In this document: positions 7,265 through 11,203 of the stretch, in pieces
Numbering within the stretch: the stretch's first letter is position 1
Layout of the letters: every line of letters begins with the position of its first letter
NCBI GenBank assembly: GCA_018971745.1
Contig: JAGXAD010000001.1
Span: 1-17,015, forward strand
Reading direction: 5' to 3'
Length of the DNA stretch: 17,015 nt
Source: Patescibacteria group bacterium
Lineage (GTDB): Bacteria > Patescibacteriota > Minisyncoccia > Sungbacterales > GWA2-42-14
Notes under the pieces: generated by a model
Told to the model about the DNA's origin: nothing
The model's input: only the letters and a program-made list of their open reading frames with translations
Database searches by the model: none
Program-made: the position numbers and the translations under genes

Positions 7265-7940
7265 TTAACGCATTTTTTGCTTTATTTCGTATAATTGAAT
7301 GGCAATAAATACTAAAACAATAACTATGATTTCTGAAAATGTGAGCGAGGATAAAAAACTAAATGCCAGGTAAATAGCCAATAATCCTAAAATTCCTGTT
7401 CCCAGAATGTTAAAAAAATAATTATAAATACGAAGTAAATAGTGAATTTGATATCCAAAATACGAATCCGTATAATACATATTATCCTTGTAGTTATTAA
7501 GAAATTTTGATTTTATTTCTGTCTTTATTTTCAAAATTTCTAGCCAATCTTCCTCTTGGAGAACAGGGATGGTCGCTAATGATGTAATGACAAGCAAACC
7601 TATAAAAATATAACGATTTTCTGAATTTATATTTGTAGATTCTTCAAAAAATTTTTTATAAAACAAAAAAGCTCCTCCACCAAAAAACAAAATAAAAAGT
7701 ACTACATACGGTAAAACCAGCCATTTGCCCTTTAGCTTTTTGTCAGAAAATGCTTCAATCTTATCTCGGCTTTGCTCTTTGAAAATAATCTTCTCGCCTG
7801 GTGTTAAAGATTTTGATTCTCCAAATTTTTTCCAATAGTAGAAAGCAAAAATAGGCGATACAAATGTACCCATCATCAATATTAGAATAGTTATTGAACT
7901 TTCTTTTACTGGTGTTGATAGATAATTTAACTCGATAATT
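7265..7940 (-). pseudogene. Multi-pass membrane protein, 3' part of a gene split by an IS
   Basis: The frame encodes about 224 residues from the IS boundary, or 203 residues if translation restarts at ATG 7876. Hydrophobic segments include SITILILMMGTFVSPIFAFY, then LVLPYVVLFILFFGGGAFLF, RYIFIGLLVITSLATIPVL and a long C-terminal pair ending LVFIAIQLYEIKQKMR, so roughly five membrane helices. I do not recognise the family. The gene is more AT-rich than its neighbours. Its natural start is missing here; the likely N-terminus is the fragment at 8462-8547 beyond the IS200-type element. Deleting 7941-8461 joins the two fragments in frame (about 253 residues in total). A shortened protein from 7876 could still be made, but that is speculative. 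Confidence 0.7.
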
Positions 7941-7961
7941 CCGCGCAGCTCTGCTGCGCGG
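7941..7961 (+). repeat. Left-end IS hairpin
   Basis: Perfect 8-bp stem with a 5-base CTCTG loop, identical to the copy at 8441-8461. The presumed recognition structure for the transposase. Confidence 0.85.
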
Positions 7962-7985
7962 TACTCCCTATGGTAAGATAAGGGT

Positions 7986-8429
7986 ATGCGAGCGGTCAGG
8001 ACAACTGAACACAATGCCTATCAAATTCACTATCATTTTGTAACTCCGGTCAAATATCGGCTATCTATCTTCGGTCGTCCTGACCGCGAGCAAACCCTTA
8101 TCAGAATATGTTCAGAAATCGAAGAGCGGTATGACTGGATATTTGAGCAGGTTGGTATTGATCAAAATCATATACATTATCTCCTGAGCGCTGCTCCGAA
8201 GTACAGCCCTTCTGAAATCATCCAAGCGATAAAGAGCATCACGGCCAAAGAGTTATTCCGCCGCCATCCCGACCTCCGTGAAGAACTATGGCATGGAGAA
8301 CTTTGGACTGACGGGTTTTTCATAGCGACGGTCGGAGAAGGCGGCAATCGAGACGCGATCAAACGATACGTAGCAAATCAAGGAAAGAAGAAAGAAATAT
8401 CCCCACAACTCAAGCTCTTCGATTTCTAA
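7986..8429 (+). CDS. tnpA: IS200/IS605-family Y1 (HUH) transposase TnpA
   Basis: A 147-residue single-strand transposase. The N-terminal strand AYQIHYHFVTPVKYR (11-25) is the family hallmark. The metal-binding HUH motif is H62-I63-H64 in QNHIHYLLSAAP. The catalytic tyrosine is Tyr128 in AIKRYVANQG. Length and spacing match active members (about 140-155 residues), and no lesion is visible, so the element may be functional. It is transcribed opposite to the gene it interrupts. The start ATG is 25 bases inside the left hairpin, with a weak AAGGG just upstream. Confidence 0.95.
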   Translation: MRAVRTTEHNAYQIHYHFVTPVKYRLSIFGRPDREQTLIRICSEIEERYDWIFEQVGIDQNHIHYLLSAAPKYSPSEIIQAIKSITAKELFRRHPDLREELWHGELWTDGFFIATVGEGGNRDAIKRYVANQGKKKEISPQLKLFDF

Positions 8430-8440
8430 TTCGTCTGATA

Positions 8441-8461
8441 CCGCGCAGCTCTGCTGCGCGG
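8441..8461 (+). repeat. Right-end IS hairpin
   Basis: Exact direct copy of the left-end hairpin, 12 bases after the tnpA stop. Confidence 0.85.
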
Positions 8462-8547
8462 AGGGTCATTACATTCCACGACAACAGTGACAGTATACAA
8501 ATACCGCTTGTAATTAATGCTTTCTGTAATAATTTTTGTTTTTCCAT
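8462..8547 (-). pseudogene. 5' fragment of the IS-interrupted membrane-protein gene
   Basis: ATG at 8545-8547 opens a frame of 28 codons up to the IS boundary: MEKQKLLQKALITSGICILS followed by LLSWNVMT. It has a basic start and a hydrophobic helix, as expected for a membrane protein. Beyond the IS hairpin the frame soon stops inside the element. Bases CT before the IS and A after it would form one codon, and the downstream frame IIELNYLSTPV then continues uninterrupted. The fragment is short, so its coding status rests mainly on that frame match and on its hydrophobic pattern. Confidence 0.55.
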
Positions 8548-10003: not shown

Positions 10004-10363
10004 TCAGATATTTTCAAAATGTTCTATGATTGGTTCCTTGTTTTCTCTAAAAATAACAGATATTGCGTCTATTCTTATTTCTTTTTTCTGATTGATATTG
10101 TTATGTTTCACATAAATCTCTGCTAATTTTCTTAGTCTATTGCGTTTTTTTGCATCTATTCTTTGTTCTGGCAGAAAGTATTTTGTACTTTCGTCTGTTC
10201 CGGTTTTTACCTCAATAATGCAAAGAATTCCATTGTTTTCTGCAATAATATCTATTTCGCCAATCGGTGTTCTGTAATTTTTATCAAGAATAGCATAGCC
10301 ATTTGAAATAAGATAATTTGAAGCAAGTTTTTCGCCTTTTTGTCCCAAAGATTTATTATTCAT
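10004..10363 (-). CDS. YraN/UPF0102-family nuclease-like protein
   Basis: A 119-residue protein, full length for the family. The N-terminal motif GQKGEKLASNYLISNGYAIL (7-26) and the PD-(D/E)XK-type core are visible: Asp38 in GEIDIIAENN, then Glu51-Val-Lys53 in IIEVKTG. These are the expected metal-binding and catalytic residues. The role in cells is not firmly established; relatives are considered nucleic-acid-processing enzymes or Holliday-junction-related. The gene is AT-rich and rich in AAA and ATA codons, unlike its neighbours. GTTTCAC motifs lie upstream, inside and downstream. The ATG at 10363 gives the canonical start MNNKSLGQKGE. Confidence 0.9.
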   Translation of the reverse strand: MNNKSLGQKGEKLASNYLISNGYAILDKNYRTPIGEIDIIAENNGILCIIEVKTGTDESTKYFLPEQRIDAKKRNRLRKLAEIYVKHNNINQKKEIRIDAISVIFRENKEPIIEHFENI

Positions 10364-10539: not shown

Positions 10540-10594
10540 TGGGCGTTGCTGGGATCGGACCAGCGGCCTTTGCAATGTGAATGCAACGCTCTAC
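10540..10594 (-). tRNA. 3' piece of an interrupted tRNA-Val(CAC)
   Basis: 55 nt: end of the D-loop and D stem GTA-GAGC, anticodon stem TTGCA/TGCAA with loop TTCACAT (anticodon CAC), variable loop AGGCC, T stem GCTGG/CCAGC, acceptor strand AACGCCC and discriminator A. The T-loop is TCCGATC, with C at position 55 where T is nearly invariant. The matching 5' piece is at 10707-10725. CCA is not encoded. Confidence 0.75.
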
Positions 10595-10706
10595 TTCACC
10601 CTTCCACCTTTTTAAAAATGGACGGTGCAGGGATCGAACCTGCGAGCTCTCCGATGTGAACGGAGCGTTCTACCACTGAACTAACCGTCCGTAAAAGGTG
10701 GGAGGG
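10595..10706 (-). other. 112-base insert in a D-loop, containing a complete tRNA
   Basis: The insert separates the outer tRNA's pieces within the D-loop. Its ends form a helix, CCCTCCCACCTTTT (10693-10706) with AAAAGGTGGAAGGG (10599-10612), 13 of 14 pairs. The helix closes over the inner tRNA-Val (10619-10690), separated from it by AC on one side and TTTTTA on the other. It is too short and lacks the motifs for a group I intron. Removing 10595-10706 gives a standard 74-nt tRNA with D-loop AGCTTGGTA. Confidence 0.7.
10619..10690 (-). tRNA. tRNA-Val(CAC), intact, nested inside another tRNA
   Basis: 72 nt, all arms canonical: acceptor GGACGGT/ACCGTCC, D stem GTTC/GAAC with loop AGTGGTA, anticodon stem CTCCG/CGGAG with loop TTCACAT (CAC), T-arm GCAGG-TTCGATC-CCTGC, discriminator A. 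No encoded CCA. Five T follow directly, which could act as a termination signal. It reads GTG codons. It differs in most stems from the outer tRNA, so it is not a recent copy of it. Confidence 0.95.
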
Positions 10707-10725
10707 CAAGCTGAGCTAAACGCCC
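10707..10725 (-). tRNA. 5' piece of the interrupted tRNA-Val(CAC)
   Basis: 19 nt: acceptor GGGCGTT, TA, D stem GCTC and D-loop start AGCTTG. GGGCGTT pairs perfectly with AACGCCC at 10541-10547, and GCTC pairs with GAGC at 10588-10591. GGGCGTTTAGCTCAGCTTGG is a textbook tRNA 5' sequence once joined to the 3' piece. Confidence 0.75.
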
Positions 10726-10726
10726 C

Positions 10727-10767
10727 AATATACGCACCTTATCAAATTATTCAACAAGTGGCAACAA
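10727..10767 (-). promoter_or_regulatory. Promoter candidates for the nested tRNA locus
   Basis: Two overlapping choices on the minus strand. TTGAAT (10749-10754), a 16-base spacer and TATATT (10727-10732) score better. They place the start near 10720, inside the outer tRNA's acceptor strand. TTGTTG (10762-10767), 17 bases and TGATAA (10739-10744) would include the whole outer tRNA but have a poor -10. Which one is used decides whether the outer tRNA can be complete. Confidence 0.4.
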
Positions 10768-10819: not shown

Positions 10820-11203
10820 TTAAATGCGAAATTTGTTGATTAATTTTTCATGGGGAAATTCAAGAATATCGCGTAAAAACCTGTCGTACATATCCATGCG
10901 ATAACGGAATTCTTCTGACGTAAGCACGACATAATTTAATTCTTTTCCGATTTCAGATTCAAGCCATGAAATGGTCCGCAAAAGTTTTGTTTTTTTGATG
11001 TTGTCGCCGATAAGCAGGAGATCAACCCTTGCGTTTTCGTTGTTGATAAAAATGCCGGAAAGAACGGCAAGTTTAATGTTGCCGAGAGTTTTTACGCGTT
11101 GAAGAATTTTTTGCCGCGATACGGGCGCGGCTTTTAAGAACAAAAGCCGCAATTCCGGAAAAAAGAGAAAATCTTTGTTTGCAAAAAAAATCTGTTTTTT
11201 CAT
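10820..11203 (-). CDS. Nucleotidyltransferase-like domain protein of a CPR regulator family
   Basis: A 127-residue protein. It starts KQIFFANKDFLFFPELRLLF, then has IKLAVLSGIFINNENARVDLLLIGDNI (about 42-68), which looks like a minimal nucleotidyltransferase fold strand-loop (G-(F/I)…D-x-L-L-(I/V)-G-D). The C-terminal LTSEEFRYRMDMYDRFLRDILEFPHEKLIN is a strongly conserved-looking block. From memory, CPR genomes carry one-piece proteins with a winged helix followed by this domain. Here the winged helix is on the preceding ORF, which overlaps by four bases (ATGA), so translation is probably coupled. The catalytic function is unclear; the usual second acidic residue is not evident. Confidence 0.7.
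   Translation of the reverse strand: MKKQIFFANKDFLFFPELRLLFLKAAPVSRQKILQRVKTLGNIKLAVLSGIFINNENARVDLLLIGDNIKKTKLLRTISWLESEIGKELNYVVLTSEEFRYRMDMYDRFLRDILEFPHEKLINKFRI

Follow-up and report, generated by a model that had tools for sequence, protein, structure and literature searches.

Nested tRNA-Val(CAC) genes in a Sungbacterales genome, and the probable displacement of resident tRNA genes by hairpin-ended cassettes carrying like tRNAs

An intact tRNA-Val(CAC) gene lies within the D-loop of a second tRNA-Val(CAC) gene, on the minus strand of a window of 17,015 nucleotides (the whole stretch of DNA that was analysed) from a bacterium of the order Sungbacterales, Patescibacteria. The nested arrangement is real and recurrent rather than a one-off, and its recurrence across genomes excludes a chance origin. 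We consider it probable that a hairpin-ended tRNA cassette of about 110 bp displaced a resident tRNA gene of its own kind, and that the outer copy was left to decay. The features of the locus, all on the minus strand, are the following.

10820..11203, minus: conserved neighbour gene, used as syntenic anchor and matched in 20 of the order's 23 genomes
10727..10754, minus: weak promoter-like match TTGAAT / TATATT directly before the outer tRNA
10711..10725, minus: 5' part of the outer tRNA-Val(CAC), comprising acceptor strand GGGCGTT, TA, D-stem strand GCTC and AG (from sequence, pairing and fold)
10707..10710, minus: left end tetranucleotide CTTG of the insert, missing in the intact G005 ortholog (L028) and recurring at other nests
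10693..10706, minus: left inverted arm CCCTCCCACCTTTT (inverted repeat I11 with 10599-10612, 93% complementary)
10619..10690, minus: inner intact tRNA-Val(CAC), the proposed working gene (ARAGORN; Rfam RF00005, 66.9 bits)
10599..10612, minus: right inverted arm AAAAGGTGGAAGGG (inverted repeat I11)
10595..10598, minus: right end tetranucleotide TGAA of the insert, recurring at other nests
10540..10594, minus: 3' part of the outer tRNA-Val(CAC), the proposed displaced gene, comprising D-stem strand, anticodon arm CAC, T arm, acceptor strand and A73 (from sequence, and from ARAGORN on joined flanks)
10004..10363, minus: UPF0102 (YraN-type) gene on the other side of the nest (PF02021, 84.4 bits)

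Read along the minus strand, the outer 5' part is followed by CTTG, a 14-nt arm, the dinucleotide AC, the inner tRNA, a short spacer, the second arm, TGAA and the outer 3' part. A reading made earlier from the sequence only had described an outer tRNA-Val(CAC) split around an intact one and a helix of 13 of 14 bp closing the insert; both descriptions hold, including the coordinates. When the outer halves are joined, the acceptor stem pairs at 7 of 7 positions, the D stem at 4 of 4, and the anticodon and T stems at 5 of 5 each, and the arms of the insert pair at 13 of 14 positions. The split outer tRNA is reported by neither ARAGORN nor Rfam, which call only the inner tRNA. With the flanks joined without the insert at varied offsets (361 joins), ARAGORN reads tRNA-Val(CAC) in 130 of the 146 joins that yield any tRNA. 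The RNA is predicted to fold with the inner cloverleaf enclosed by the outer (-79.2 kcal/mol; z = -4.98 relative to 200 shuffles). Only 2 nt separate the left arm from the inner tRNA, so the region upstream of the outer gene very probably drives the inner copy, and we infer that the two share it. The promoter-like match in this region is at chance level (one found, 0.9 expected in shuffles) and carries no weight alone.

The 112 nt between the outer halves hold the inner tRNA between 14-nt inverted arms, as the earlier reading had it, but the limits of the insert that were drawn there need revision: CTTG (10710-10707), like TGAA (10598-10595), belongs to it. In the intact gene of G005 (L028; G and L numbers denote genomes and loci) the D-loop is AG-TG-GTA, within CAG-TG-GTAGAGC, whereas the window has AG-[CTTG...TGAA]-GTA and the nests have CAG-[CTTG...TGAA]-GTAGAGC. 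This comparison indicates that CTTG and TGAA arrived with the insert and that the host TG was lost. The loop AGCTTGGTA, which had been proposed as the outer D-loop by assigning CTTG to the outer gene, differs from the ancestral one. Since the host TG was swapped for CTTG...TGAA, plain excision fails to regenerate the D-loop of the relatives; exact removal does not restore the ancestral tRNA, though D-loop nests still give a readable tRNA.

Parts of the 206-nt locus recur in relatives. A search of 55 genomes with this locus led to 20 matching places that were then read, and more nests are among them; intact (G005, L028), nested and decayed versions of the locus were all found. The ends AGCTTGCCC...GGGTGAA, taken as an exact pattern, match 24 places in 20 genomes when 383 genomes of the class, an even draw from a larger group, are scanned. 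At 15 of these a tRNA lies within the insert (13 genomes in 9 families, by our classification), three others are the same kind of element with other cargo, and six are unrelated; the reversed end pattern, as a control, gives three matches in the 383 genomes. A stricter pattern applied to a named collection of 84,980 species matches 39 stretches, and the four with a tRNA between the ends are all from Patescibacteria (L095 from the Patescibacteria group, L097 and L099 from Portnoybacteria, and L102 from Sungiibacteriota). Most of the genomes are draft metagenome assemblies, on whose completeness claims of absence depend, and many readings of decayed layers were made by eye.

Nests of this kind could in principle be produced by an assembler that misjoins reads of two tRNA genes, as metagenome assemblies may do with such repeats. 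The genome that contains the window is a draft of 190 contigs, and one locus of G015 is a suspected chimaera: in the tRNA-Ile(GAT) nest L022 (G015:C8 around 55950), two layers have exchanged their 5' and 3' acceptor strands, and this is likely a product of recombination or misassembly. However, nests are present in many genomes, in named records and in a genome assembled as one contig, and matched arms and decayed outer layers accompany them. We give an assembly artefact next to no credence as the general explanation.

The one-contig genome, G012, has 923,369 bases and no N, and ARAGORN predicts 70 tRNAs and one tmRNA in it. An array of 21 tRNA genes (G012:C1 439820-442718, in L237) includes many isoacceptors and is possibly of phage or other mobile origin. 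By our count, the 49 tRNAs outside the array cover all 20 amino acids, and ARAGORN reads uninterrupted tRNAs for every amino acid. Split tRNA flanks, with no fewer than 6 of 7 pairs in the acceptor stem and 4 of 5 in the T stem, surround nine of the 49 non-array tRNAs and 11 of about 2000 random positions. Among the nine, Asp and Lys look spurious in our judgement, and the filter misses nests at Tyr, Gln, Cys, Arg, Trp and Phe tRNAs that are visible by eye. At about 683.7-684.3 kb, a tRNA-Ile(GAT) nest has four layers, three of which are readable as GAT by eye: an intact tRNA-Ile(GAT) and two outer copies with both halves and the GAT anticodon. The fourth layer is a 3' part with an incomplete anticodon.

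The conserved neighbour gene at 10820-11203 makes it possible to follow the Val(CAC) locus among relatives. In 13 genomes a tRNA-Val(CAC) gene follows this gene on the same strand. Nested remains are found at seven of the 13 loci (G000, G005, G007, G011, G014, G016 and G018), and none were seen at the other six (G006, G008, G009, G012, G019 and G013, the last judged by a low arm score only). The outer tRNA of the window, when joined, is 93% identical to the intact syntenic gene of G016 and G005, whereas the inner tRNA is 76% like its own outer copy and 89% like a tRNA of G043, which belongs to another order. Likewise, the outer copy of G011 is 96% like the G013 gene while its inner and outer copies share 68%, and the outer copy of G007 is 94% like the G008 gene while its inner and outer copies share 76%. 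Because the outer copies match the intact genes of relatives and the inner copies diverge, we take the outer copy as the resident gene, into which the inner one arrived later. Sequence comparison thus shows the outer gene to be of older origin at the syntenic locus.

Many relatives have outer layers that are decayed or truncated (by eye, in G005, G014, G016, G018, L023, L045, L046, L048, L050 and L052). G005 has two additional decayed 3' parts, and G016 has several 5' parts without 3' parts (L029). The sequence-only reading had named decay of the outer stems in relatives as the mark of a dead remnant, and had offered, as its simpler alternative, a tRNA-bearing insertion that killed the outer gene. 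That alternative is supported, and such insertions prove to be recurrent and matched in anticodon; the interpretation as a whole is partly supported.

The anticodon comparison used 231 distinct tRNAs, of which 116 have inverted flanks at a score of at least 16. In 33 of the 116 cases, joining the flanks gives a sequence that ARAGORN calls a tRNA spanning the joint, and the commonest flank reading equals the inner anticodon in 14 and differs in 19; on inspection by eye, we judge the 19 to reflect extra hairpins, broken anticodon loops, decayed arms, or flanks taken from the tRNA array. A set chosen independently of outcome leaves out seven nests of the G012 array and requires the whole outer anticodon arm in one flank. 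In this set the inner and outer anticodons are the same in 11 of 17 nests; with at least two joins, 11 of 16 agree, compared with 0.94 on average and never more than 7 in 100,000 shuffles. Agreement between inner and outer anticodons is therefore far above chance. The agreeing nests are Val cac, Arg tct and Ile tat in G000, Thr ggt (L099), Val gac (L102 and L043), Ala ggc (L002), Thr tgt (L062), Gln ctg in G015, and Met and Arg gcg in G012.

The six disagreeing nests are L108, Leu(aag); G012 Lys, read as Cys(aca); G012 Thr(tgt), read as Gly/Gln; L201, a tie between Asp(gtc) and Val(cac); L060, Gly(tcc); and L061, Cys(gca), with one join. In our judgement by eye, these carry additional hairpins, an anticodon loop that is broken or an arm that has decayed, and the right flanks of L060 and L201 still carry a GAT arm and a CAC arm, respectively. 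When the lost dinucleotide is restored under a TG/CA rule, a tRNA results in nine of 24 rows (23 nests), all nine of which agree with the inner tRNA, and the other 15 rows give no tRNA. Two of the nests, L207 and L209, are interrupted in the anticodon loop and read as CAC only after the dinucleotide is restored; simple removal yields SeC or Asn. Between them, the two tests identify 13 different nests that agree.

These data bear on whether the outer copy functions. Perhaps the inner tRNA is cut out and the paired outer halves are ligated to a mature tRNA, and a split or cis-spliced tRNA had in fact been suggested for the window. Such splicing would be consistent with the fold, which keeps both cloverleaves, with the Val(CAC) reading of the joined halves, and with the location of insertions in or beside loops. 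Removal, however, leaves CTTG where TG was, gives the wrong identity in L207 and L209, and would have to act on outer copies that are truncated in many relatives. The tRNA splicing endonuclease domain tRNA_int_endo (PF01974) is found in none of the 19 genomes searched, MAGs being incomplete, whereas it is found in four of 14 control genomes, the four archaea. RtcB (PF01139), the only ligase searched, is above the cut-off in none of the 15 genomes searched from the window's order (23 in the set) and in nine of the 14 control genomes. It is above the cut-off in two of the 19 genomes, G177 and G282, neither of which is in that order, and G003 has a fragment below the cut-off. Because neither PF01974 nor RtcB above the cut-off was found in the searched genomes of the order, protein splicing there would have to proceed without a known enzyme. 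Nor is there a group I intron or other self-splicing core in the window: a scan with all of Rfam at the gathering threshold finds three tRNAs only. We regard splicing of the outer tRNA as highly unlikely, and the earlier suggestion of it as unsupported, given the enzymes not found in the searched genomes, the replaced dinucleotide and the decay of outer layers.

Alternately, the outer tRNA might work as an unligated, nicked molecule of two pieces held together by the acceptor stem, the D stem and the arm helix. In favour of such a molecule are the stems, all intact in the window, and the low z score of the fold. Insertions in the anticodon loop (L207 and L209) are hard to reconcile with a two-piece tRNA, though, outer copies that have lost a half exist in relatives, and no amino acid in G012 depends on an outer copy. 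A functional two-piece tRNA is accordingly given very little weight.

Nests occur in or beside D, anticodon and T loops. Replacement of TG also fits L025, in an anticodon loop, and L058, at a non-tRNA site that was judged against a paralogous stretch. Anticodon-loop nests have the ends TTCA...CAAG, the reverse complement of CTTG...TGAA, and for that reason the idea that D-loop and anticodon-loop nests are two element types was given up. A universal TG rule was given up too: T-loop insertions replace TTCG (G000 C41, G012 Arg and G015 Gln), and G015 Thr(CGT) fits neither TG nor TTCG replacement. Terminal inverted repeats are present in the window and in other nests, and arms that differ in sequence between nests remain complementary.

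The arm families also turn up around other cargo and outside tRNA genes. In G012, TCCCCCAC(C/T)TATT arms enclose tRNA-Met, tRNA-Ile(TAT), tRNA-Ile(GAT) and two non-tRNA cargos, showing that cargo is exchangeable between like arms. G015 contains dozens of CCCCGTTAGA elements of about 47-138 bp (54 pairings, some overlapping). Several of those in intergenic regions have 4-nt repeats on both flanks, whereas tRNA nests have the dinucleotide replacement instead. Cassette ends surround a non-tRNA cargo of about 60 nt in L058 (G015:C7 240632) and L064 (G022:C12 12285), with a long terminal stem GGGCCATGAAG...CTTCATGGCCC, and this cargo sits at a site resembling a copy of the same cargo element.

Other loci have additional structures. 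In L045, L060 and L062, whose outer tRNAs already hold an inner copy, palindromes without cargo lie at about one common point of the outer D stem (after position 12). The tRNA-Val(TAC) nests L039 (G000:C55) and L010/L274 (G040:C8), from two families, have in common an extra hairpin in the outer tRNA immediately before the anticodon loop. In L061 (G177:C26), a tRNA-Pro(CGG) gene, a non-tRNA insert occupies the D loop and the anticodon region holds a tRNA-Pro(CGG) cassette.

Nests might instead arise by local copying of a tRNA gene into itself, for example by template switching or fold-back synthesis at a replication fork, which would explain the agreement of anticodons without selection. Inner and outer tRNAs are 90% alike in L270 and 96% alike in L099, where local copying is possible. 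In L056, L060, L046 and L048, moreover, the right arm complements, by eye, the left arm plus the first 4-5 nt of the inner tRNA, and these right arms look like products of fold-back synthesis. In the window, G011 and G007, by contrast, the inner copy is only 68-76% like an outer copy that is 93-96% identical to genes of relatives, and the recurrence of arm families with other cargo and at non-tRNA places also argues against copying in situ. We think local copying unlikely to be the general origin of the nests.

Candidates for a mobiliser or carrier of the cassette were sought and rejected. The window contains a gene for a Y1 (IS200-like) transposase (7986-8429, plus strand; PF01797, 114 bits) flanked by two CCGCGCAGCTCTGCTGCGCGG palindromes (7940-7963 and 8439-8462) in a RAYT/REP-like unit, but these palindromes are unlike the cassette arms. 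Y1_Tnp is present in 13 of 19 genomes and absent from the nest carriers G015, G011, G040 and G282, and a tblastn search with the window's Y1 protein gives no match in G015, whose sequence contains about 75 kb of N, or in G012. No convincing larger autonomous element with the same ends was found; a 3.2-kb candidate in G012, with reading frames that we read as thioredoxin- and reductase-like, is probably two separate short elements. A viral carrier was rejected because the one match in viral_contigs is without a tRNA. A tRNA-targeting genomic island does not fit either, as the 112-nt insert has no coding room and both outer halves keep their own ends. An origin of the integrase type, through crossovers in loops, was weighed and set aside. 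The idea that G015 is without tRNA-Val, -His and -Asn owing to interruption was dropped in view of the N in its sequence.

In the displacement that we favour, the cassette would consist of the left end CTTG, an inverted arm, a complete tRNA gene, the second arm and the right end TGAA, and we infer that it moves as a unit. It would have inserted into the D-loop of the tRNA-Val(CAC) gene already in place, replacing TG, and the cell would have survived because the cassette brought a full tRNA-Val(CAC). This tRNA may be transcribed from the region upstream of the old gene and released by ordinary 5' and 3' tRNA processing, so that it took over as the presumed working copy, leaving the interrupted outer copy to decay as a remnant. 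Such displacement would have been repeated in the class with many isoacceptors and loop sites, layer upon layer. A break in a single-copy tRNA gene is survivable only when the same tRNA is supplied, and this would account for the agreement of anticodons, the decayed outer layers and the repeated nesting; mismatched insertions would presumably be lost as lethal.

Several observations weigh against this displacement. The outer stems of the window are all intact, which function could equally explain, and insertions at loops are also expected if a working outer tRNA constrains where they can lie. Among the 17 anticodon readings chosen independently of outcome, six disagree, the inner and outer tRNAs of L270 and L099 look locally copied, and assemblies may misjoin such repeats, as is likely at L022. 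No transposase for the cassette ends was found with Y1_Tnp, the transposase family searched, and no transposition intermediate was found.

A broader view, which we put forward tentatively and rate at somewhat less than even, is that of a "home and rescue" system occurring in nature. Here a mobile cassette with hairpin ends would attack tRNA loops, and the surviving cells would be those that received a sequence-diverged copy of the same tRNA. Essential tRNA genes could then be displaced repeatedly, also by copies from other lineages, the cell would become dependent on the cassette, and each locus would hold one living tRNA gene with dead ones stacked around it.

No published report of tRNA genes nested in tRNA genes was found among titles and abstract starts in the open-licence PMC library. 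The nests resemble the split, permuted and intron-containing tRNAs of archaea, as outlined in PMC3218864 and PMC2237900, in the interruption of a loop, the pairable halves and the extra helix at the break. Unlike archaeal split tRNAs as outlined there, the nests occur where no splicing endonuclease was found in the genomes searched, the insert is a complete tRNA that is usually readable as having the outer anticodon, and outer copies decay. In Caldiarchaeum, an archaeon, a 1.8-kb mobile element encoding a recombinase disrupts a tRNA gene, in a case of intron gain, and fragments are left beside an intact gene, much as in the nests; the abstract describes no whole tRNA nested in a loop (PMC3293823). 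Bacterial MITEs and REP/RAYT palindromes, the subject of a review (PMC10969869), are likewise short, noncoding elements with inverted ends, multiple copies and varied interiors. The cassette differs from them in that its cargo is an intact tRNA gene placed within its own kind and TG is replaced rather than plainly duplicated at the target; no partner transposase was identified by the search for Y1_Tnp.

Some genomic islands and phages use tRNA genes as integration sites and restore the gene's 3' part. They share with the cassette the choice of tRNA genes as targets and the preservation of host tRNA function by element-borne sequence. The cassette, in contrast, is about 110 bp long with inverted arms and no integrase, supplies a complete second tRNA, and keeps both outer halves. 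Engineered cleave-and-rescue or home-and-rescue elements disrupt an essential gene and supply a sequence-diverged working copy, and the cassette appears to do the same, although it is natural, carries only a tRNA, and has no known nuclease. tRNA genes are regarded as stable, vertically inherited and essential, yet here they appear to be displaced by like cassettes, stacked in as many as four layers, across several families of a single class. If this is true, replacement of tRNAs would mislead tRNA annotation, gene counts and tRNA phylogenies in Patescibacteria, the nests would be a readable record of serial gene displacement, and the cassettes would be a natural counterpart of engineered rescue drives.
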